Below, piece by piece: positions 3,500 to 21,173 of a stretch of DNA of 64,000 bases. Positions within the stretch are counted from its first letter, which is position 1. Each line of letters opens with the position of its first letter. The position numbers and the translations under genes are program-made. Origin of the DNA: Herpetosiphon giganteus. GTDB taxonomy: Bacteria; Chloroflexota; Chloroflexia; Chloroflexales; Herpetosiphonaceae. The notes under the pieces were generated by a model. That model searched no databases. It was not told the DNA's origin and saw nothing but the letters and a program-made list of their open reading frames with translations. The stretch covers positions 1 to 64,000 of the forward strand of contig NZ_JAFBCZ010000025.1 of NCBI RefSeq assembly GCF_016907925.1. The letters run 5' to 3'.

Positions 3500-4491
3500 T
3501 GTCCTATCCTTTGTAATGCGGCCACCGTGGTGACTTGGGCATTTGCGCCCCAAACGCCACCGCTGTGCACCGTCGCTAAATCTTCGAATTGAAATGCACC
3601 CTGTTTCCAGAGTCCATACCGACCTGGGCCAAGCATATCGCGCTGCGTTTTTGCGCTTTGCTCCAGAAACCATTCCTTGCCCGTTGACATCGCCAGCGGC
3701 GCGCGGTTCCTTAAAATTGGCAGAATTGCACACCGGCACTGAGGATGCAGCGGCATCATGACGTTGGTTGGGTAGACCGTGCCATCAAGCGCTAGACAGG
3801 CCAGACAGGTACGCCGTTGGCGTGCCGCGATTCGCATGTAAGCGGTAGTCAAACCACTCGTTTGATACTGCTGCAATGTTGCCAACCGTGCTGCCCGAAC
3901 CGACTGATCACGGGTGATGAGCAAGGCATGATTGAGACTGGTTGTCAGTCCATCGTTGACCATGTTCCGCGCGGTCGTGCGCGGATTCTTGCCCAACGCC
4001 AACCCCTTCAGCAGTTCGTCGGTGATGGCCTGCGCCGTTGCTGGATAGGCAGCACTCAACAAATCAGCGAGCGGATTGCCAGCCCGTGCCAAAGCAGCAA
4101 TGTTTTCAAATGCACCGCTGCCCAATTGATAGAATGAGCCTTGAATCGCGCCGGAATAGCGCAACCACGCCGTGGCCTGCTCGGCCCCCATACTGGCGAA
4201 ACTCAATTGTTGCGCCTGAATCAGTGCAGCTGCATCGGCGTTGTACTTTGCCAATTCCCGCTGGAGTTGCACCAACAACGCGTGGTAGCGATCGTTCGCA
4301 TACAGTTGCGACTCGCTGACGGTTTGCCCCTCGGCTTTGGCTTGGCTCATTTGAAATGCCAAGGCCTCGATCTCAGCCTTCAACGCGGCTTCGACCATAC
4401 GCCAGCGGTTGGTCAAATCGTCCATGGCGCGCGCGTTCATTACCAACAACTCGTTGCGAAACTGCGTCGCAATGGCAACGACATTAATCAT
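3496..4491 (-). CDS. Minor head protein (Mu F / SPP1 gp7 family)
   Basis: The 331-aa protein carries the family signature near its C-terminus: a CLACLALDGTVY segment followed after a short gap by HPQCRC, the Cys/His cluster of Mu-F-like minor head proteins. The N-terminal two thirds are helical. These proteins enter the procapsid with the portal and help early head assembly or DNA ejection. The start ATG overlaps the portal stop (ATGA), so portal and minor head protein are co-translated, the typical arrangement. Confidence 0.88.
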   Translation of the reverse strand: MINVVAIATQFRNELLVMNARAMDDLTNRWRMVEAALKAEIEALAFQMSQAKAEGQTVSESQLYANDRYHALLVQLQRELAKYNADAAALIQAQQLSFASMGAEQATAWLRYSGAIQGSFYQLGSGAFENIAALARAGNPLADLLSAAYPATAQAITDELLKGLALGKNPRTTARNMVNDGLTTSLNHALLITRDQSVRAARLATLQQYQTSGLTTAYMRIAARQRRTCLACLALDGTVYPTNVMMPLHPQCRCAILPILRNRAPLAMSTGKEWFLEQSAKTQRDMLGPGRYGLWKQGAFQFEDLATVHSGGVWGANAQVTTVAALQRIGQ

Positions 4492-6053
4492 TCCGGTTGC
4501 TCCAGACCCGTGCTCGCGGCACCACTGTCGAGCCGTGCTTGGTTGGTTGCGAGCGCTGCGGCCAGCGTGCGGGTTTGCTGAAGCTGCTTGGCTTCCTGCT
4601 CCGCCGCAATGCGGGCTTTCTCGGCATCGACATCTTCCACATCGATCAGCCCTAAGAACAAGTCATGGCTGATGGCCCCTTTTTCATAGGCTGCAAGCAA
4701 GAAATTGCGTTCCTCACTGCTTAAGCTGCCGAGCCACAGGCGTGGGATCACATCCGCACGCAGGCTATCAAAGGCGTTCGGGCGACCAGCAAAGTGGGCT
4801 GCGAGGGCCAAGGTCGCTTCGAGCAGCCAGCGCACCAGCTGTTTGATGGCGGTGGCCGTTGGGCCAAGCGCCATCGCGAAATCGAGCAAGGCTTGTTTAC
4901 GACTTTCGCCGCTAGCAACCGCATCCCCACTCAACAGCGCATGCAGCTGCTTACACTCGTTGAGCATGCGGCGATAAATGGCGGCATCGGTGTCAATGAA
5001 GGTCGTCACGGGTGACGGGTCACGCCATTGCACCGATGGGTTGGTATAACCGGTGATCACCTTCGTGCGCTCATCCCGAATCGGTACACCCACGAGATTG
5101 GTCGTTTTGCCGGGGCCAATGTCATAGGGCTTATAGACGCGCATCTTTTGCCCAGCATTCGCCGGATCGTCCACCTCGTCGTAGGGCATTTGGGCATTCG
5201 ACAAGACGCGTTCGACAAAGCCACTGATGACGATGTTGTGTTGCAGCATGGTCAAGGTCATGTTTAAGGCCTTTTGCATCTGCTGCATCGACAGGCTGAT
5301 GATGGGCTTGCAGGTGATTTCCAGCATCAGTAAGTGACCCATCAGCGGCAATCGCGTTTCGCCCGTGACCGCCTCCCCTTCGAGCGTGCGCACCACGGTA
5401 TCGAGGCCATCAAGGAAGGTCACTTCCGCAACTTCTTTTTTGTCGGCGTTGGTGTAGACATACACGCCACAGGCTTGCATGGTGGCTTTGTCGCGGCTGA
5501 CCCCAGCCTGATCTGGGGCCAGCACATCGAGCCAAATGAGATTCAAGGCATCGGCCAAGGTTGGCTGTCGTTGGATTACCCCGCCATCGACCGCAGCAGG
5601 CGGAATAAACAAGCGCAGCACCGCACGCCCATGCACCACAGCAGTGGCAATTGATTCTTGCAGGATGCCCAACACATTGCGCTGATCCCACCAGCTCGTC
5701 ATGGCTGCTTCGGCTTCGTCGATTAAGATTTGCTCGGGGTCGGTTGGTTGTTCATCCTCCAGTAGCGGGCGGCGCACGGCATAGCTCCACTGCGGCTCAC
5801 GGCCAATCGCTCCATTCATATGCCGTTCAACCACCTCGGCAATCACATTGCTGGACACAAACTCGCGTTGGATACGGGTCATCACCTCGGACGCGTTTGT
5901 ATCGCCAGCGGCAGGCGTGGGGCCAGTCCACGCTGCGCCACCCTGCCAGTGATCGCCATCACGAAACAACACCGCGCTCTTGACGCTTTCGGGCGTAGAA
6001 GGCAGCCGTTTCTTAGCCAATTCAACGGAGAGTGTGTCAAAGGCAGTTGGCAT
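4488..6053 (-). CDS. Phage portal protein
   Basis: The protein is about 521 aa when started at the ATG at 6053. That start is favoured by a TAATG overlap with the terminase stop and a strong GGGGGAG six bases upstream. The size and the mix of a helical wing and stem with a long C-terminal helix (KARIAAEQEAKQLQQ) fit SPP1/lambda-type portals, which form the dodecameric ring through which DNA is pumped. It lies directly after large terminase and before the MuF-like gene. Identity comes mainly from this order, supported by features such as the VSSNVIAEVVERHMN helix. Confidence 0.85.
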   Translation of the reverse strand: MPTAFDTLSVELAKKRLPSTPESVKSAVLFRDGDHWQGGAAWTGPTPAAGDTNASEVMTRIQREFVSSNVIAEVVERHMNGAIGREPQWSYAVRRPLLEDEQPTDPEQILIDEAEAAMTSWWDQRNVLGILQESIATAVVHGRAVLRLFIPPAAVDGGVIQRQPTLADALNLIWLDVLAPDQAGVSRDKATMQACGVYVYTNADKKEVAEVTFLDGLDTVVRTLEGEAVTGETRLPLMGHLLMLEITCKPIISLSMQQMQKALNMTLTMLQHNIVISGFVERVLSNAQMPYDEVDDPANAGQKMRVYKPYDIGPGKTTNLVGVPIRDERTKVITGYTNPSVQWRDPSPVTTFIDTDAAIYRRMLNECKQLHALLSGDAVASGESRKQALLDFAMALGPTATAIKQLVRWLLEATLALAAHFAGRPNAFDSLRADVIPRLWLGSLSSEERNFLLAAYEKGAISHDLFLGLIDVEDVDAEKARIAAEQEAKQLQQTRTLAAALATNQARLDSGAASTGLEQPE

Positions 6054-7777
6054 TAGTAGCTCCCCCATGAGCCAGGCATTGCTTCATCGTCATTGCTTAC
6101 TAACAGGTGATCAAAGCAAAAGTCAGGAGCGCCACACAAGACCAAGCCATCACCATCATCAGGACTATGCTTATGGCGTTTGCGAAAATCATCCTTGGGT
6201 TCAAGGCGTTTCAGCTCGAGCTGCCCCTTCGACTGATAGCCATACTGACGATCGGTCAAATCAATTTCGAGCTGCTCGGCGGGCTGAATAATGGCAATGT
6301 CCTTCAAGACCTCTGCCGTTTCAGCGTACATCTCGGTCACGCAGTTGGCGTACTCCTCGCTGTTGTGCGGCGAGGGCAGCGCCCCAAACATGACCTCAAT
6401 CACCTGATAGTTACGAAAGCGTCGCCGCAATTCGGGATCAACCAGTAAGCGATCGATAATGCCTGCACCAAAACCACCCGTACCATCGACGCGAATATGC
6501 AGACTAGTTACATCCTCAGGCAGCTTCAATGCGGCGAACTTAATATGCTCAACATAGACAAAGGTGTTTTGCTGCTCGATGCGAGCAACCTTGCTAATGT
6601 GCCCGTTGTGCCGCAGATACACCGCCCCGGTATCATCACCCCAGCGCGCACAGTCCACCCCGATCCGCGCCTTGGTTGGGTCAGCGGTTGCGTTAACCAT
6701 GGGCTGTTTGCCACGTTTGACTGCTGCCTCAAATCGACCAACCGGAATGAAGGTATTGATGCTGGCGTTCTCCGGCGGAATGCCCAGCACGCGGAACATA
6801 AATTCATTGTTTGGCTGATACCAGGTCGTGGCATCCCATGGCAATTGGAAGTGGAATAAATCAGGGTTTGGCCCGTCTACTTCTTGGCAGTGCTTTTCGA
6901 TCATGTCGGTGACATAACTGCGTTTCACCGCCCCTGGCACCACAGTTTTATCAGCCACCACATTCGGGTGCTGTAAACAACTCATCCGCATCGAGAGCAC
7001 GTTGCTGTACTTGGCTTGGTGATAGAAATGGCTGTTGCGTGTTTTGGGATTGGCAATCATCAGCACAATCACGATCCCGCCACTCGTCATCGAATCGATA
7101 GCCTCATAGACAAACTTGGGAATGCCTTCGGCCTCGTCCAGTACAAACATCAAAAACTTGCCGTGCTGCCCTTGTACCCGCTCGCCGCCCTTGCCATTGC
7201 TATCATCGGTTGACTTGCCACTCGCAAAATGGTTGTCGTCGATGATGACTTCACAGGTCTCCAGAATTCGACCGGGCAGCTTGGCCTTTTTGCGGTCGGT
7301 TTTGATTTCTTTCCAGAGCAGCTTTTTCACCTGATCCCAACTGGGGGCAAAGGTGTAGATAATGCTGGGCCGAAAGCAATCTAAGAAATGGCTCACCAAG
7401 GCGCTCATGCCTTTGGTCTTGCCCACCCCGTGGCCTGCTTCGATCCGTATCCGATTCTTGATGATCTGCCCCGGCTGCCACACGGTTTCATCGTAGGCTT
7501 CGCCGTTCTCGTACTTTTCTCGTTCAAACTGTTGGCGCAACGCAAGCGTATAGGCCTCGAAAATCTCAACCTGCCCAGGCTCGTCGATGCCTGTGCCGCG
7601 CCATGGCTGCCAGCCCAGCTTGTCTTTGGTGTAGCCCTCAGGATTGAACTGATAGTCGGCAAACGGCGATACATCCTCCAAACCGCGTTCGCGCAGTTCA
7701 AGGATGGCCTTGGCGCGGACTTGCAGGCTGAGTGGCGGCTTAATCCGCAGATTCGTATTAGGGGTTAAGTAAGACAT
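6053..7777 (-). CDS. Terminase large subunit
   Basis: The product is 574 aa from the ATG at 7777, placed after GAGG and overlapping the small-subunit gene by 20 bases. The ATPase domain shows Walker A GHGVGKTK (about residue 115-122) and Walker B FVLDEAEG (about 211-218). The C-terminal nuclease domain starts at RIGVDCARWGDDTG, with the first metal-binding Asp. The enzyme powers DNA packaging at the portal and cuts concatemers. Length and motifs are complete, with no sign of decay. Confidence 0.95.
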   Translation of the reverse strand: MSYLTPNTNLRIKPPLSLQVRAKAILELRERGLEDVSPFADYQFNPEGYTKDKLGWQPWRGTGIDEPGQVEIFEAYTLALRQQFEREKYENGEAYDETVWQPGQIIKNRIRIEAGHGVGKTKGMSALVSHFLDCFRPSIIYTFAPSWDQVKKLLWKEIKTDRKKAKLPGRILETCEVIIDDNHFASGKSTDDSNGKGGERVQGQHGKFLMFVLDEAEGIPKFVYEAIDSMTSGGIVIVLMIANPKTRNSHFYHQAKYSNVLSMRMSCLQHPNVVADKTVVPGAVKRSYVTDMIEKHCQEVDGPNPDLFHFQLPWDATTWYQPNNEFMFRVLGIPPENASINTFIPVGRFEAAVKRGKQPMVNATADPTKARIGVDCARWGDDTGAVYLRHNGHISKVARIEQQNTFVYVEHIKFAALKLPEDVTSLHIRVDGTGGFGAGIIDRLLVDPELRRRFRNYQVIEVMFGALPSPHNSEEYANCVTEMYAETAEVLKDIAIIQPAEQLEIDLTDRQYGYQSKGQLELKRLEPKDDFRKRHKHSPDDGDGLVLCGAPDFCFDHLLVSNDDEAMPGSWGSY

Positions 7778-8327
7778 CGATGATATCCTCGCCTGCTGCA
7801 ATGGCCCGAATTTGATTAGGCGTGAGTTTGCTCACATCAAGGTTGGCCAACAACGAATCTTTGATATTGGTCAGCGCGCCATTGGCCTTGCCAATCAACT
7901 CCAGCGCTTTCAGTGCATCGTGCAACTCCAGCTTGGCACCGACTTTGGACGTTCCTTCTTGAAAACTGCGCACCAGCCCGATGTCCGCCTGCGCCTCCAC
8001 AGTTTTCAGGTTTATCGCATTGCCTTTGGTGATGAATGGCTCGATCGTGCCGCGTGCGATGCGGGCTAAGCGATCAAGCACCTCATCGGCGCTCATGGCG
8101 CGTTCGGCCACCAAGTCTCGTATCGCGCGCATGATGTTAGCTTTTGTTAGCATGCGGCTTGCGGTCACGGATGCAGCGCGAGGATTGTCCTCTGAATAGC
8201 CTGCTCGCTGAGCGGCCTTCGTGCCGTTGAAGTCTTTGACATACTCATACACAAACGCCTGCTCCTTTTTGGTTAAGGGCTTGTCTGCTGCATATTTGAG
8301 GTTGTCGTGTACTTCATTGGTCATCAA
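7758..8327 (-). CDS. Terminase small subunit
   Basis: The 189-aa protein has the N-terminal helix-turn-helix typical of Terminase_2 small subunits: LTKKEQAFVYEYV, then NGTKAAQRAGYS and a helix ending RAIRDL. It binds the packaging site and recruits the large subunit. A central helical oligomerisation region follows. The gene lies just before large terminase and overlaps it. The packaging site itself is often within or near such a gene, but it cannot be located here by eye. Confidence 0.92.
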   Translation of the reverse strand: MMTNEVHDNLKYAADKPLTKKEQAFVYEYVKDFNGTKAAQRAGYSEDNPRAASVTASRMLTKANIMRAIRDLVAERAMSADEVLDRLARIARGTIEPFITKGNAINLKTVEAQADIGLVRSFQEGTSKVGAKLELHDALKALELIGKANGALTNIKDSLLANLDVSKLTPNQIRAIAAGEDIIDVLLNP

Positions 8328-12337: not shown

Positions 12338-12363
12338 AAAGCCTAGCTTGTAAGCTAGGCTTT
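12338..12363. terminator. Bidirectional rho-independent-like terminator
   Basis: AAAGCCTAGCTT and AAGCTAGGCTTT form a 12-base perfect stem with a two-base spacer. Runs of A on one side and T-rich sequence on the other fit termination in both directions. It closes the leftward three-gene operon ten bases after its last stop. Confidence 0.8.
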
Positions 12364-12373
12364 AAAAACTATT

Positions 12374-13570
12374 TTATTTTAGGAATCCTAAATAATCAAA
12401 CTCATCGTTCATATCTTGTACGTATTTATTCAATCCTCTAAGCCAATTTTTCTGAACTTTAAGTAATGGATCTCTTATCGTTATATATGAGTTTATTATT
12501 TCTTCTTGTATTTTCTGTGATTGATTTAATTTTTTGATTGCATATATAGCACTTTCTCTTATATTATTTTTAGATGCTATTTCTTCAATTTGCTTAGAAA
12601 GAATATATAGTAAATGTTTTTTAGGATATGGACTAGGCCAATTATCAATTTCCTTTTCTACTTGTTCTGAATACGGCGAATATTCTAAGATCTTACTTCT
12701 AAGTATAGGGATTAAATTCCCAGTTTCATCTGGATGAACAATATTACCCCATAGAGGATAGGAAAAAAATTTCGGTGGGTGTTTTTTAGGAATAAATTTA
12801 GTAGTTCTCACTACCCATCGGCTTCTTGTAAATTGCCATAGATTTTTTATTTGTCCTACCCCAACCGCTGTTGAGCCAAAAGCATATGATAGTAGGCCGA
12901 GTGGTCCAGCAAATGCATGAAAAAGAGGTTTTCCAGTATTAGCTAATAATAAGCCAGCTTTAAGAAAGCTATAAATTTCATCTGGATTTGATGGCATTTT
13001 TTCATCCGAAAACTCGAAGGAGAAATACCATCCATCAGCGTTTAGCCTTGTTATATCTGATAGAAGAGCCATGATATTACTATCAGATATAACAGCTGAC
13101 CTTCCTATTATAATACTAGCATAAGTAGGTATTCCAAGATTATCCCCAACCTGTTTTGCTGCTTTAAAAAGCTTCTCATTGAGATCTGTAATTTTATCGT
13201 CTGATGCTTCATAAATAACTGCTGGAGCAATAACAGCATTAGTACCTACTTTCTCATTTATAAATAATAAATCTCTCTGTAATGATAATAAACCATCGCT
13301 ATCAATTTCAACTAGCTTTGAAATTCGATTTCTATGATTATTCATACTATAGGATTGTAGATTTTTATTTGAATAACTAGGAATATGATATTGTTGATCA
13401 ATCATCAGCTCAAAACCTAGTTTTTTAAGCTTTTTTGCATTGGTAATCATTGAGTTCTGAGAGATATCTCTTGGACTAAATACAGCTCCTTGTCCAACAC
13501 CTGTCTTTGCCAAATCTAGCATAATTTTCTGACTACCAGAACCATATTGAAACCATACACCTCTTTTCAT
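12374..13570 (-). CDS. Unknown TIM-barrel-like protein, last gene of nuclease/kinase operon
   Basis: The 398-aa protein matches no family I recognise. Repeating strand-helix units over residues about 1-270 suggest a TIM barrel: GVWFQYGSG, FELMIDQQYHIP, NAVIAPAVIY, PTYASIIIGRS, WYFSFEFSD, then KPLFHAFAGPLG and a glycine-rich STAVGVGQ loop of the kind that binds phosphate. The C-terminal 110 residues are helical and basic. The start overlaps the kinase stop (TAATG) with GGAGG in front, so translation is coupled. The gene is strongly AT-rich compared with the phage genes, pointing to recent transfer. The barrel call is inference from pattern only. Confidence 0.85.
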   Translation of the reverse strand: MKRGVWFQYGSGSQKIMLDLAKTGVGQGAVFSPRDISQNSMITNAKKLKKLGFELMIDQQYHIPSYSNKNLQSYSMNNHRNRISKLVEIDSDGLLSLQRDLLFINEKVGTNAVIAPAVIYEASDDKITDLNEKLFKAAKQVGDNLGIPTYASIIIGRSAVISDSNIMALLSDITRLNADGWYFSFEFSDEKMPSNPDEIYSFLKAGLLLANTGKPLFHAFAGPLGLLSYAFGSTAVGVGQIKNLWQFTRSRWVVRTTKFIPKKHPPKFFSYPLWGNIVHPDETGNLIPILRSKILEYSPYSEQVEKEIDNWPSPYPKKHLLYILSKQIEEIASKNNIRESAIYAIKKLNQSQKIQEEIINSYITIRDPLLKVQKNWLRGLNKYVQDMNDEFDYLGFLK

Positions 13571-14412
13571 TAAGAACCTCCTAATTTTTGCAATAATAAT
13601 TTTACCTGTCCTGCGTTCATTGGGCGATTTATTCTCTCTTTTTCTAAAAGTTTTTTGATGATTATCTTAAGTAGAGGAGGGAGGTTTATATAATCGGGAT
13701 TCATTAAATAAGCAGTAGATAATTGGATGTTTTGATATAGATCACCAGGTATATCGGCAAAAGGATGTGTACCTACAGCAGCCTCATATAATATGATACC
13801 CAGTGCAAATAGATCTGTCCGATGTTCAATTTCTCTTCTGTTTCCACGTGTTTGCTCTGGAGCAAAATACAAAGGAGTTCCTATATCAGCACCTCGCTGT
13901 GTGCTAGTCAAATCAGGTAACCTTAAATGCCTCGCTACTCCGAAGTCAATAATTACAGGATCATTATTCTTATTGATACGGATATTACTTGGTTTCAAAT
14001 CACGATGAACAATACCTTTATCGTTTAATACTGAAAGTCCATCGCATAACTGAGAAAAGATATGGATAATATTATCCAGAGATAATGGGGCTTTGGAAAG
14101 TGTTTCAGTGAAATCACATCCATCAATAAAATGTTCGACTAGATAATGCCGTTGAACGCCATAACGCACAGAATTTTCATAAATAATAAGTTTCGCCAAG
14201 TTTTTGTGATTCATATCATAAAGCGCCCCAATTTCACGTCGGAGGCGCTCATCATCATCATTATCATGTATGATCTTTAAACAAAGATCAATTCCTTTCT
14301 CATCTCTAACATGAAACGCTGCCCTTTGCGCACTAGGCGTAAGTGCTTTAATGAAAGTATAATCTGGATAAAGTTTTTGAGCTTCTTCAAGAGGAACTAT
14401 ATAAAAACTCAT
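13570..14412 (-). CDS. Stand-alone Ser/Thr protein kinase (Hanks type)
   Basis: From the ATG at 14412 (AAGGAG overlapping the nuclease-gene stop) the product is 280 aa, almost exactly one kinase domain with no membrane segment or sensor. It shows Lys46 (CLKII), Glu60, the catalytic loop HRDLKPSN (136-143), DFG (156-158), activation segment GTPLYFAPEQ and conserved Asp200 and Arg263. The N-lobe loop lacks the usual GxGxxG glycines (KALTPSAQRAAF), which is odd for an active kinase. It sits between a nuclease-like and an unknown gene. It may phosphorylate one of them as a switch. The base composition is AT-rich. Confidence 0.92.
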   Translation of the reverse strand: MSFYIVPLEEAQKLYPDYTFIKALTPSAQRAAFHVRDEKGIDLCLKIIHDNDDDERLRREIGALYDMNHKNLAKLIIYENSVRYGVQRHYLVEHFIDGCDFTETLSKAPLSLDNIIHIFSQLCDGLSVLNDKGIVHRDLKPSNIRINKNNDPVIIDFGVARHLRLPDLTSTQRGADIGTPLYFAPEQTRGNRREIEHRTDLFALGIILYEAAVGTHPFADIPGDLYQNIQLSTAYLMNPDYINLPPLLKIIIKKLLEKERINRPMNAGQVKLLLQKLGGS

Positions 14413-14416
14413 AAGA

Positions 14417-15085
14417 TTACTCCTTTTTGTTTTGAGCAAGTATCAAGGCCAGCCGATAATAATAACTCCAAACTTTGGGATTATCACGTCTAGCTGATTT
14501 GATAACCTCTACTTGGTGTGCTGCATTGACTGCAAGAATACCGATCCCGAGATCTTGAATGCTGGGTTCAAGCTGAATCCGTATGGCAACACGGGTTGGC
14601 ATTGCAATATACGAACGATGGGCAAATATCTTATTACGATGTGCCTGAGCGACTGCCTTGCGCCAATCGCTTACCTTTGCTTCGACGCTCACGATTTCAG
14701 GCAAGATGGAACGCCACGTTGGGGCAAGGGCATAGGTATATCCTGATTGTTCGACAATATTTAATTCAATAAGATTCGATAACTGTTCCCACACATTCCG
14801 GCTCGTTTGAAGCACTCGCTCAGCGATGGTTTCAAGCCGAGCTTTATTGATTCTACGAAGATATGACATGATATTAATTGGATCTTGCGTAACTCGTGTG
14901 AGCTTCGTTACCTCAGGCTGGAAAGTTGTCGCTAACAGATCTGGCTTTCCTGCCCCAACGGTCAGTGAACCAGCAGTCCAAAATTCTTGCCGACCAAGAA
15001 GCAACTGAGGGAGGTGATGTGCTACAGCATCTTCAATAATTGCTTCTGGGCCATTGATCCGACGGCTAAAATAGGTGACACTCAT
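14417..15085 (-). CDS. Nuclease-like protein: split PD-(D/E)XK motifs around a winged helix
   Basis: The 222-aa protein has an N-terminal helix with Glu18, then GAGKPDLL (44-51) matching the PD motif. A winged-helix-like region with a helical block and Tyr-rich wing spans about 70-125. Then IVSVEAKVSDW gives Glu135 and Lys137 of the (D/E)XK motif, and a helix with Gln147 leads to the strand YIAMP. Together they fit a restriction-endonuclease-like fold with a DNA-binding domain inserted between the two catalytic strands. It leads a tightly packed operon with the kinase. The fold is inferred by motif only, and GC is higher than in its two partners. Confidence 0.82.
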   Translation of the reverse strand: MSVTYFSRRINGPEAIIEDAVAHHLPQLLLGRQEFWTAGSLTVGAGKPDLLATTFQPEVTKLTRVTQDPINIMSYLRRINKARLETIAERVLQTSRNVWEQLSNLIELNIVEQSGYTYALAPTWRSILPEIVSVEAKVSDWRKAVAQAHRNKIFAHRSYIAMPTRVAIRIQLEPSIQDLGIGILAVNAAHQVEVIKSARRDNPKVWSYYYRLALILAQNKKE

Positions 15086-15125: not shown

Positions 15126-15154
15126 ATAATACGCCTTTGTGATGAATATTACAA
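15126..15154 (-). promoter_or_regulatory. Probable promoter of the nuclease/kinase operon
   Basis: On the minus strand TTGTAA (15154-15149) and TATTAT (15131-15126) are separated by 17 bases, about 40 bases before the nuclease start at 15085. Agreement with the sigma-70 consensus is moderate. The AT-rich intergenic stretch of about 250 bases to the next gene on the right contains no gene. Confidence 0.55.
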
Positions 15155-16052: not shown

Positions 16053-17159
16053 TTATGCTTCAGCCTTGGGATTGGTATAGGCCGCGATGGTAGCTCTGAG
16101 CCGATCAGCAAACTTATAGATATCATCAATATCTTTGATTTGAACTTTTTCTTCTTTGCGTTGGTTATCAAAGAGGCTGATCGATTTTGTGGTGGTTGAG
16201 TTCAGCCAGAGCCGGCAGATGGGCTTGCGATTGTTGTCATCGAGCAGAATGCCACAGTAGCTCTGCTTATCGCGCATGACGATGCGTTTGGCATCGATGG
16301 CTTCACGCAAGATGGAGCGCACGATGTAGAAGGCTTCAAGCTCTTCCATCGTGGTCAGCACGCCCGTGGCTTCTTTGTCGGCTGCGGTCACTGGCTCGTC
16401 GGTTGCTGCTTGAGCAGCTGGGGTTTCCTCGATCGTGATCCGTGTATCGGTTCCCAATGCGGTTTTGAGCCGATCGTTCACCTGGTCGTTGATGAAGTTG
16501 CGCAGCGCTCGGCGGGTGGTCTGGCCAAATTGCTCGCGCATGTTGGCGGTCATGCGGCCACTGTAGACTTGGGTCGCGAAGAACTTGATAAATTCTTCCG
16601 AGGGATTGGTGAGTTGTTCGCCCATGATCCGCTTAATTTCGCGGGTATATTTCAGCTCGCTGGCGGTCGTGACGATGCCAGCTACATCGAAGGTGGCTTT
16701 GGTAAATTTCTTTAGTTCGTCAACATCTTGTTCACGAATATCAAGCAAGTTGAATTCGAAGAAGGGTTTGGTATCCATTTTGTTGGGCGCTTCGAGATCG
16801 GTGTAAAACCAGTAGGAGAGGCCATTCGTAAGAATCCCAAAGCGAGCCTCAGTTACGCTGAAATAGCGATACAACTGGGAAGCATGGGCCTTACCCAAAT
16901 CGGCATTGTGATGCTTACATTCGAGGAGCATGACCGGCTTTCCATCACGCAGGATCGCATAATCAACTTTTTCACCTTTTTTCAAGCCAATATCGGCATT
17001 CAGTTCGGGGGTTACTTCGAGAGGATTGAAGACATCGTAGCCCAGTGAGGCTAAGAAGGGCATAACTAGGGCATTTTTGGTTGCCTCTTCCGTTTGAATA
17101 TACTCCAGCTGCTTGGTAACACGGGTGGCCAGATCGCGCAGACGGTCAATCAGATCCAT
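16053..17159 (-). CDS. Orphan HsdR N-terminal-type nuclease
   Basis: The ATG at 17159 is six bases from AAGGGA and is preferred over one two codons upstream. The 368-aa protein has the type I restriction HsdR_N (PD-(D/E)XK) core: Asp in KGEKVDYAILRDG, then LLECKHHN (Glu80, Lys82) and a following helix with SQLYRYF. The C-terminal part (about 180-368) is helical then mixed and has no helicase. No HsdM or HsdS gene is nearby, so this is not a complete restriction system. Such solitary proteins are common in bacteria and phages with unknown role; nucleic-acid cleavage is likely. Confidence 0.85.
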   Translation of the reverse strand: MDLIDRLRDLATRVTKQLEYIQTEEATKNALVMPFLASLGYDVFNPLEVTPELNADIGLKKGEKVDYAILRDGKPVMLLECKHHNADLGKAHASQLYRYFSVTEARFGILTNGLSYWFYTDLEAPNKMDTKPFFEFNLLDIREQDVDELKKFTKATFDVAGIVTTASELKYTREIKRIMGEQLTNPSEEFIKFFATQVYSGRMTANMREQFGQTTRRALRNFINDQVNDRLKTALGTDTRITIEETPAAQAATDEPVTAADKEATGVLTTMEELEAFYIVRSILREAIDAKRIVMRDKQSYCGILLDDNNRKPICRLWLNSTTTKSISLFDNQRKEEKVQIKDIDDIYKFADRLRATIAAYTNPKAEA

Positions 17160-17307
17160 GGTCATTCCCTTCTAAACAAGAATGCGGTTACCCTAGTTCC
17201 TACACACACTGCGATAAGCGCTCTCTACACGCCTAACAAACGAAGTGCCTTGAAGTCTACCACCTCCTAACTAACGCTACAAGACAAACATTTGTGTTAT
17301 TCAGGTA

Positions 17308-17358: not shown

Positions 17359-18267
17359 TTAACTTTCGCACCCAATACCATCTTTATCGCGATCAAAACG
17401 GTGTGGATCGGGTGCCAAAACTCTAAATCGACGATATGGGATGTCACCACAATCAAGATCTGGCGGTGGTGGTGCAATACAGACATCAGGATAGGAAGGA
17501 TCACATCGTGGGACAGACGTTGATGTAAGTGTTGGTGTTGCAGTTGGAAGAGCCGTTGCTGTCGGGAGTGGAATTCCCGTTGGTTGCGGCATCGGGATTG
17601 CGGTTGGCTGGGTTACGCTTCGCACTTCGCTCCCAAGTAATCCAAGCAATACCTTAAACTCATCAGGATTATTGGGATGCCATTCAAATCGAGCGCGCTC
17701 GAACCACTGGGTTTGAACAGTATCGCCATTCGCATTCGTTTCAGTGGCTACACTAGTAAGAGGAAGTCCAAAAAGTTGTAATGATCGTGCATATACATCA
17801 AGCCCTGGTATCGTTAATCCATGCGATTGCCAGTAGCTTTTGAATCCTCGGTTTGGAGCTTGATCACAGACATTATGCCCGGTCTCCTCAAACCACAAAC
17901 ACCCTGGGATTGGTCCAGCTTCGCGGGCATTAGCAGTGCGACCGAGTTGTGTCAGTCGCTCTTTTCCAAGCAATCCTAAGAGCACTTCATAAGGAGTACC
18001 AACATTTTCAGGATGGTACTCAAAGCGATTCCGCTCTAGCCATTGTGTTTGATAGACCATCCCAGTGTCAGGATTAGCTTCACCTGCAGCTGCGCTGATG
18101 GGATAGCCAAACACGGCGAGACCACCATTGGCTTCCCAATAATCCGAGAATGGATCATCAAGGCAAAACGCTGATTGTGAAAAGCAAAGGTTGTGGGCGG
18201 TTGCTGCTTGTGGAAGAAACAGCACGATAAGACTCAGAGAGCATAGAAGGAAGATGAGCCGACGCAT
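17359..18267 (-). CDS. Secreted protein: duplicated FGYP-type module plus Excalibur domain
   Basis: The start at 18267 gives a 302-aa product with a clean signal peptide (MRRLIFLLCSLSLIVLFLPQAATA). Residues about 25-205 hold two copies of a module with YW..NGL, FGYP/FGLP, TQW.ER.RFE.HP and VLLGLLG motifs, frequent in extracellular Chloroflexota proteins. A Pro/Thr linker leads to a C-terminal Excalibur domain (DRDKDGIGCES) that binds calcium through its Asp cluster. It is a paralogue of the protein at 19,980-21,173, differing in the C-terminal part. A role in surface binding is plausible but unproven. Confidence 0.85.
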   Translation of the reverse strand: MRRLIFLLCSLSLIVLFLPQAATAHNLCFSQSAFCLDDPFSDYWEANGGLAVFGYPISAAAGEANPDTGMVYQTQWLERNRFEYHPENVGTPYEVLLGLLGKERLTQLGRTANAREAGPIPGCLWFEETGHNVCDQAPNRGFKSYWQSHGLTIPGLDVYARSLQLFGLPLTSVATETNANGDTVQTQWFERARFEWHPNNPDEFKVLLGLLGSEVRSVTQPTAIPMPQPTGIPLPTATALPTATPTLTSTSVPRCDPSYPDVCIAPPPPDLDCGDIPYRRFRVLAPDPHRFDRDKDGIGCES

Positions 18268-18298
18268 GCAAAGACTCCTTAACAAACTGATGATATAG

Positions 18299-18332
18299 TA
18301 TTTAGATGCACTCTTCATGCATTTTTTGGATG
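18299..18332 (-). promoter_or_regulatory. Bipartite promoter element, copy 2
   Basis: TATTTAGATGCA (18299-18310), 13 bases, then TTTTGGATG (18324-18332), one mismatch to the other copies. It lies 32 bases before the start at 18267 and just behind the stop of the HEPN gene. Confidence 0.7.
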
Positions 18333-19979: not shown

Positions 19980-21173
19980 TTATTTGGGTGCAATACTCCA
20001 ATCACCATCAGCTTGCACTTCGTAGAAACAAGGGCCTTTGCTGAATCGTGCTACTGCTTCACTCTGTACAGGGCCAATCTCGTTTTGAACAAGATCCCGC
20101 CCACCAGCACAGTAGACCCAAACAATAAAGTTACTGTTGCCATTGTGGCTAAATCGATAGGGGATATTACCGATTTTAGCCGGCTCAAAAAGATCGCTGA
20201 CCGTATCTCCTCGTCCTTCGATTCCACTAGTGGCAATCCCTTGATTGTAGCCGAGCGGCTCGAGACGTAACGACCATGTTCCATCAGCATCTATTTCAAA
20301 AAAGGTTTCTTTCTTGCCAGTAACGAAGCGACTGCCGTTATATCCGCCAATTTCATTGACAATCAGATCACGATCCGAGCCTTGATAGGCCCACACAATA
20401 AAGTTACTGCGGCCATCATGGGTAAAGGTGGCGCGTGCATAACCAAACGGAATCATAAGAGGATCGGTCACTTTTGGCCCAATCCCGCTCAGCATGATTG
20501 GTTGCGGTGGAGGAGTATTTTCCCGCACTTCTTTCCCGAGTAATCCAAGAAGCACTTTGTATTGATCGGGATTGTTAGGATGCCATTCAAAGCGTGCACG
20601 TTCAAACCATTGGGTTATCACGGTATCGCCATTGGCATTGGTTTCCATGGTGGCACTGGTTAATGGAAGTCCAAAGAGTTGCAACGAACGAGCATAGGCA
20701 TCTAAACCGGGGATTTTTAGCCCGTTTGATTGCCAGTAACTTTTGAAGCCGAGTCCTTGAGCTTGATCACAGACATTGTGTCCAGTATCTTCGAACCAGA
20801 GACAGCCTGCAATCGCCCCAGCCTCGCGTGGTTCTACGCCGCGATTAAGTTGAGCAAGACGATTTTTTCCTAATAATCCCAAGAGAATTTCGTAGGGTGT
20901 GCCTGCATTCTCTGGATGAATTTCAAACCGATTGCGTTCCAGCCACTGGGTTTTATAGGTTTGCCCAGTATCACTATTCGCTTCATCGGTAGCAGCATTA
21001 ATAGGATACCCAAAGACCGGCAATCCTCCATTACTTTCCCAATAGTCACTAAAAGGATCTTCGAGACAGAAACCTGTTTCGTTAAAACAAAGATTGTGGG
21101 CCGCAGCGATGCTGGGCATCCCTGCTATCACGAGCACCCCCAGCATAAGCATAGAAAACCAACGACGCATCAC
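19980..21173 (-). CDS. Secreted protein: duplicated FGYP-type module plus two beta repeats
   Basis: The 397-aa product has a signal peptide (MMRRWFSMLMLGVLVIAGMP followed by SIAAA). Residues about 26-215 match the two-copy module of the paralogue at 17,359-18,267 almost residue by residue. The C-terminal 170 residues instead hold two similar beta-rich repeats marked SNFIVW, DLI.NEIG and DGTWS/DGDWS, resembling pre-peptidase C-terminal-type sandwiches. Two related proteins with swapped tails flank the HEPN pair. The gene is preceded by the shared promoter element at 21,204 and followed by a terminator. Confidence 0.85.
   Translation of the reverse strand: MMRRWFSMLMLGVLVIAGMPSIAAAHNLCFNETGFCLEDPFSDYWESNGGLPVFGYPINAATDEANSDTGQTYKTQWLERNRFEIHPENAGTPYEILLGLLGKNRLAQLNRGVEPREAGAIAGCLWFEDTGHNVCDQAQGLGFKSYWQSNGLKIPGLDAYARSLQLFGLPLTSATMETNANGDTVITQWFERARFEWHPNNPDQYKVLLGLLGKEVRENTPPPQPIMLSGIGPKVTDPLMIPFGYARATFTHDGRSNFIVWAYQGSDRDLIVNEIGGYNGSRFVTGKKETFFEIDADGTWSLRLEPLGYNQGIATSGIEGRGDTVSDLFEPAKIGNIPYRFSHNGNSNFIVWVYCAGGRDLVQNEIGPVQSEAVARFSKGPCFYEVQADGDWSIAPK

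Follow-up and report, generated by a model that had tools for sequence, protein, structure and literature searches.

A prophage-borne trio of a PD-(D/E)XK nuclease-fold protein, a Hanks-type kinase, and a transglycosylase-fold protein is probably an antiviral defense module with a swappable killing part

PD-T4-6, a Hanks kinase defense, is a lone-gene system, and abortive-infection systems typically combine a constant core with swapped toxic parts. tRNA-guanine transglycosylase (TGT) carries catalytic aspartates at the ends of two strands, that of strand 3 serving as the general acid-base and that of strand 8 as the nucleophile. In PglW and DndF, a kinase and a nuclease are joined in one chain, and the Dpd and BRC systems use TGT homologues as modifying enzymes (PMC12839542). 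Within a 64,000-nucleotide stretch of Herpetosiphon giganteus DNA (here called the window), we analyzed an operon of three genes encoding a PD-(D/E)XK nuclease-fold protein (A), a Hanks-type Ser/Thr kinase (B), and a protein with the TGT fold (C). What follows on the gene set and its folds, on conserved residues and co-occurrence, and on tree agreement, swaps, and neighbors was obtained by computation. No named system matching the trio was found in Pfam, NCBIfam, PADLOC, or the open-licence literature (a description elsewhere is possible), in line with the earlier note on this DNA, whose author knew of none. The trio probably represents an antiviral defense that has not been described before, with a swappable killing part; an antiviral function as such is likely.

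The three leftward, tightly coupled genes that the earlier note had read here are confirmed by the open reading frames (ORFs) and their junctions. All lie on the minus strand: gene A (positions 14417 to 15085; 222 amino acids [aa]), assigned from the ORF list, conservation, and a structural model; gene B (13570 to 14412; 280 aa, with an ATG start), assigned from Pfam and conservation; and gene C (12374 to 13570; 398 aa), a TIM barrel of the TGT fold according to its model and structural matches. A and B meet at AAGGAGTAATCTTATG, in which the stop codon of A falls between the ribosome site and the start of B, and B and C meet at TAATG; these junctions imply translational coupling. A sigma-70-like promoter (15126 to 15154, minus strand; TTGTAA-17-TATTAT, a consensus match only, at 9 of 12 positions) is located 40 to 70 bases upstream of gene A, and an intrinsic terminator (12338 to 12363, minus strand; 11-bp stem, 4-base loop, and T-rich tail) is placed exactly at the operon end, the counts of promoter-like and terminator-like sites both being near chance for the region. 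As had been noticed before, two of the genes are richer in AT than the phage genes: the GC content is 35.8% in B and 31.9% in C, with A intermediate at 45.6%, versus 55.4% in the phage structural genes at 4488 to 7801.

A viral contig from IMG/VR (L018) is identical to the window over 3,484 bases, which agrees with the reading of this region as a prophage. Just upstream of the trio, a lone gene (16053 to 17165, minus strand) encodes an HSDR_N-type endonuclease (Pfam HSDR_N, 2.4e-17; PHROG 4225 endonuclease, 3.3e-124), which may give the prophage a second gene for restriction or exclusion. Farther on, two minus-strand genes (17359 to 18318 and 19980 to 21173) encode secreted paralogues with the common repeated motif DPFSDYWE.NGGL.VFGYPI, which are probably duplicated prophage cargo.

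The PD and EAK nuclease motifs previously seen in A are present (as PD and ExK) and hold up in structure prediction. In the predicted structure (pLDDT 96), the conserved catalytic set of E14, D49, E135, K137, and Q147 is carried on a PD-(D/E)XK core fold; among 49 full-length A relatives, D49, E135, K137, W141, and Q147 are invariant and E14 is nearly so. Structural matches to the model include PaqCI, a restriction endonuclease (Z = 12.0), and SPO1766 (Z = 11.3), a protein of unknown function that we take to be PD-(D/E)XK-like. The middle part of the model gives matches to winged helices of the ArsR/MarR type, and this segment (about residues 57 to 128; 14702 to 14917, minus strand) lies between the strands bearing the D and ExK motifs. 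According to the model, A is a single nuclease domain interrupted by an insert of DNA-binding type, in agreement with the split nuclease of the earlier note. The insert is optional, since the Polaromonas A and many other relatives lack it and keep the catalytic set. Sequence searches with A returned nothing beyond a weak winged-helix match in Pfam, NCBIfam, PADLOC, and PHROGs, and no match among solved structures.

B belongs to the Pfam family Pkinase (E = 4.7e-34). Its glycine loop (TPSAQRAAF) lacks the canonical GxGxxG, and in 18 of 81 B relatives the first loop glycine is a serine. The original description of B, a Hanks kinase whose glycine loop is degenerate, is accurate: the loop is glycine poor, and HRD and DFG are present. 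The VAIK lysine, the alpha-C glutamate, HRD, the asparagine, and DFG are intact in B and kept in 74 to 81 of the 81 relatives. Because these catalytic residues are kept, B should be an enzymatically active Ser/Thr kinase. Its best PADLOC profile match is PD-T4-6 (E = 5.6e-44), and it falls below the equivalog cutoffs of MAD6 (117.8 bits versus 460) and PglW (66.6 versus 990).

The third protein had been called TIM-barrel-like, and its predicted structure (pLDDT 92.4) agrees with this, specifying the TGT fold. The best 50 structural matches to the model (VIA) are all TGTs (Z = 18.4 to 19.3), 289 to 318 residues can be aligned with TGT structures at 6 to 9% identity, and Foldseek matches the model to 2pwu (3.2e-5). 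By these matches, C is no generic TIM barrel. At the sequence level, Pfam, NCBIfam, PADLOC, and PHROGs assign C to no family, solved structures gave nothing meaningful, and cultured phages gave no match; neither C nor ten of its relatives matched PF01702 at E values up to 1. A pattern search of genome contigs with C as a single protein gave nothing because C diverges too fast. Profile comparison with TGT by hhalign is weak (pairwise E = 0.0055 for the subset with CxCxxC, weakly in register), so the TGT assignment of C rests on structure, motif, and register. The CxCxxC motif is found in 19 of 87 C relatives, where it aligns with the TGT zinc motif in the profile comparison, and is absent from the C of the window.

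Conserved positions in C may fall at the strand ends that are catalytic in TGT. Strand 3 ends in D58, which never varies (87/87), and strand 8 ends in G239, found in 84 of the 87 relatives; P116 is also near-invariant. By strand order, we infer that C keeps the general acid-base residue of TGT and has lost the nucleophile. The possibility that C is a functional transglycosylase was provisionally rejected, the presumed nucleophile site having no conserved acidic residue. The genome from which the window comes has its own true TGT gene elsewhere. At G506:C1 (92759 to 93904 and 97661 to 98737), a trio lies about 4 kb from a true tgt gene, which may be a coincidence.

Using profiles of A, B, and C, we found the complete trio at 85 loci besides the window, distributed over at least 14 named bacterial phyla in the genome scan and including one haloarchaeal plasmid. 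Plasmids of Bradyrhizobium and the haloarchaeon Natribaculum gave the first relatives of C, and plasmids of Polaromonas the next; searching with A led to plasmids of Priestia, Kocuria, Arthrobacter, and Kineococcus, each of which also carries the kinase and C. The trio on the Bradyrhizobium plasmid (L002, 6662 to 8870) is broken by several frame changes. The A motif VExKxxDWRxAxxQA, used as a DNA pattern, yielded 18 viral and 116 genome loci. Several gene orders occur among the genome loci: B-C with a convergent A (26 loci), a fused B-C (13), A-B-C (12), and B-C-A (10). Thirty-two loci extend 2.5 kb or more beyond A in each direction; C is also present in 28 of them and the kinase in 19. Short A genes were considered as a possible A-only class and rejected as such, a better C profile having detected C in 13 of 13 of their loci with full flanks. 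In C-centered genome surveys, 11 independent strong hits (E values no higher than 4e-26) were left once the seeds and the window were set aside. All 11 have A next to C; 10 have the kinase, and the eleventh has a PIN RNase. Among these strong hits, the third gene does not mostly occur without the others.

In phylum-wide genome draws, C occurs sporadically (seeds included, in 7 of 400 Chloroflexota, 5 of 296 Bacteroidota, 11 of 296 Actinomycetota, and 1 of 299 Pseudomonadota genomes), which marks the trio as accessory and not as a set of conserved housekeeping genes. The trees of the three proteins agree with one another (Mantel r = 0.45 for A-B, 0.57 for A-C, and 0.75 for B-C; 0 of 2,000 permutations each). 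The window C clusters with two alphaproteobacterial C proteins, that of Limimaricola among them (SH-aLRT 100). This grouping suggests that the trio has moved across phyla, and horizontal mobility of the trio is supported.

Restriction enzymes of types I, IIG, and III, BREX-like genes, and integrases are encoded around the trio, and a SAVED-domain gene adjoins the Bradyrhizobium copy. At one locus (L213, 2746 to 11239), the trio lies between the genes for a BREX-type PglXI methylase and a BrxHI helicase, an arrangement that looks like capture within a BREX-like locus. The neighbors of the trio (140 proteins) matched 300 PADLOC families versus 19 matched by 103 control proteins from arbitrary regions of carrier genomes, none of them a restriction enzyme, a ratio that overstates the difference because one restriction-modification (RM) system matches dozens of PADLOC models, that is no count of systems, and that is crude given the short loci and simple ORF calls. 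Together with the 85 loci, these RM and BREX-like neighbors bear out the expectation that the trio would be conserved in diverse hosts and defense islands.

Some relatives of the operon have another gene in the place of the kinase. Three loci show the order A-PIN-C without a kinase. The C of these PIN loci is a full C relative, and the other swaps occur in more distant branches (C'), which match the C profile at 99.6 to 99.7% probability. Seven loci (L013, L019/L056 [counted as one], L029, L090, L112, L120, and L138, from Bacillota, Spirochaetota, and viral contigs) combine a C relative with a SIR2-like protein, a Panacea-like protein, and an A without the insert. The SIR2-type GAGxS motif was found in all six loci checked, and L120 was assigned by Pfam; among the six loci other than L029, Pfam detected the SIR2-like domain in five (E = 1e-5 to 5e-4) and not in L138. 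The Panacea-like protein of these loci was matched by Pfam once (E = 1e-4, just under the cutoff). Six further loci (L059, L064, L073, L097, L131, and L155, from Acidobacteriota and archaea among others) encode related Panacea-like proteins (99.9% profile match) with a short A and C', and four of them (L059, L073, L097, and L131) encode an additional small protein with a hydrophobic stretch. At L153 (5008 to 7196) and L154 (5400 to 7722), C' occurs without A but with a RES toxin and an Xre-type regulator, and the three may form a tripartite toxin-antitoxin system. The same set was seen at L218 and L219, with RES judged by eye.

Across the kinase, PIN, SIR2-like, and Panacea groups, the catalytic residues of A and D58 of C are kept. 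Since A and a C relative persist with a PIN or SIR2-like protein instead of the kinase, the kinase looks like an exchangeable effector. This constant core with exchanged toxic parts is our main reason for favoring the kinase as an effector over a nuclease switched by a kinase. We infer the defensive role, the trigger, the direction of signaling, and the effector role as follows. The trio would be a mobile, abortive-infection-type antiphage module carried by the prophage. A, usually with its winged helix, and C would form a conserved recognition core, in which the former TGT pocket of C probably binds a nucleic acid or a guanine-like ligand, and A may bind or cut nucleic acid. Once the core is triggered, B would phosphorylate cell targets and shut down the cell; in relatives, the PIN RNase or the SIR2-like protein would act as the effector in its place. 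We put the probability of this division of labor, in which recognition falls to A and C and killing to the kinase, one effector among several, at roughly 50%.

The earlier note had instead proposed a kinase-switched nuclease, in which C senses infection and B turns on A by phosphorylation, so that A, as the effector, would cut invader or host DNA. Nearly all A proteins keep the complete PD-(D/E)XK set, the tightest invariant motif of the trio, and this invariance also counts against our model of core and effector, as it suggests cutting; A could itself be the effector, or a second one. The position of the swapped genes other than PIN in the more distant C' branches likewise weighs against our model. 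Pairs of kinase and nuclease are known from BREX PglW and DndF (PMC12839542). A PP2C phosphatase gene stands beside A in seven Bacteroidota loci (L054, L088, L101, L121, L128, L167, and L168), as would fit a reversible switch; under the model of core and effector, it could be a fourth component that reverses the action of the kinase in one Bacteroidota clade. A calcineurin-type phosphoesterase is encoded nearby at two loci (L003 and L010), and both kinds of neighbor fit real protein phosphorylation. However, relatives retain A and C with a PIN RNase or SIR2-like protein replacing the kinase, meaning that kinase control is not required family-wide, and we consider a kinase-switched nuclease unlikely. 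From the earlier interpretation, the conserved mobile unit and the nuclease fold are supported, and the kinase as a switch for A is not supported.

We regard as improbable an addiction module in which the kinase is the toxin, A or C or both serve as antitoxin and autoregulator, and maintenance of the plasmid or prophage is the main function, with defense secondary. The trio is indeed carried on plasmids and prophages, its relatives are paired with RES-Xre and Panacea-like toxin-antitoxin parts, and the winged helix of A suits autoregulation, but three conserved proteins, two of them with enzyme motifs, would be unusual for a toxin-antitoxin system, and RM and BREX-like genes are abundant among the neighbors. 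The TGT fold of C, and a D58 that never varies at the strand 3 end where TGT has a catalytic aspartate, would suit a modification-restriction pair in which C exchanges a base like TGT or DpdA, A cuts unmodified invader DNA, and the kinase regulates. An RM-like system does contain a TGT homologue, DpdA (PMC12839542), but this pairing is very improbable given that the strand 8 nucleophile position is (by strand order) the near-invariant G239, that neither preQ0 synthesis genes nor Dpd genes were seen with the trio, and that no PADLOC Dpd model matches C.

If the division into recognition core and effectors is right, a broad antiviral family has been missed by defense libraries, as no named family covers two of its three proteins. 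With one divergent query, we obtained no trio match in 5,426 Escherichia coli genomes, and screens based on E. coli may therefore never have encountered the trio. The fold of a tRNA-modifying enzyme would have been turned into an immune sensor, and this is open to a direct test, the question being whether a TGT-like pocket recognizes a nucleic acid or guanine derivative made by a phage. The swapping of effectors would be a natural experiment that separates recognition from killing. Our broadest proposal, which we hold tentatively, is an unnamed but widespread immune family of bacteria and archaea that joins a catalytically altered TGT fold as infection sensor to a PD-(D/E)XK protein and interchangeable killers (kinase, PIN, or SIR2-like).

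Compared with described proteins and systems, C resembles TGT and ArcTGT (PF01702) in its overall fold over about 300 residues. Its invariant aspartate at the end of strand 3 may, by strand order, correspond to a catalytic one of TGT, and in the minority of relatives with CxCxxC (19 of 87) this motif aligns with the TGT zinc motif. Unlike TGT, C has no conserved acid at the presumed nucleophile site and is encoded with a nuclease and a kinase. B shares a predicted active-type kinase core with PD-T4-6 and other single-gene Hanks kinase defenses but is bound to A and C at 85 loci and is sometimes fused to C. Like BREX type 2 PglW, DndF, and MADS, the trio unites a Ser/Thr kinase and a nuclease domain in defense loci, whereas its proteins are separate and small, its own helicase or ATPase is absent, and its third subunit has the TGT fold. 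The pairing of a TGT-fold protein with a nuclease recalls Dpd 7-deazaguanine DNA modification, but C lacks the presumed nucleophile and the module lacks the other Dpd genes; C had no PADLOC match at E values up to 1, and no Dpd gene was present among the window ORFs examined. Effector-swapping systems such as CBASS and the Panacea toxin-antitoxin modules share with the trio family a core that stays the same while the toxic parts (kinase, PIN, and SIR2-like in the trio family) are exchanged, although its core consists of a PD-(D/E)XK protein and a TGT-fold protein, and we found no described module with such a core. None of these described systems has this gene set. We file the trio as a mobile multigene defense module with exchangeable effectors, both core proteins of which have no family name; if C is a sensor, the trio would merit its own category.
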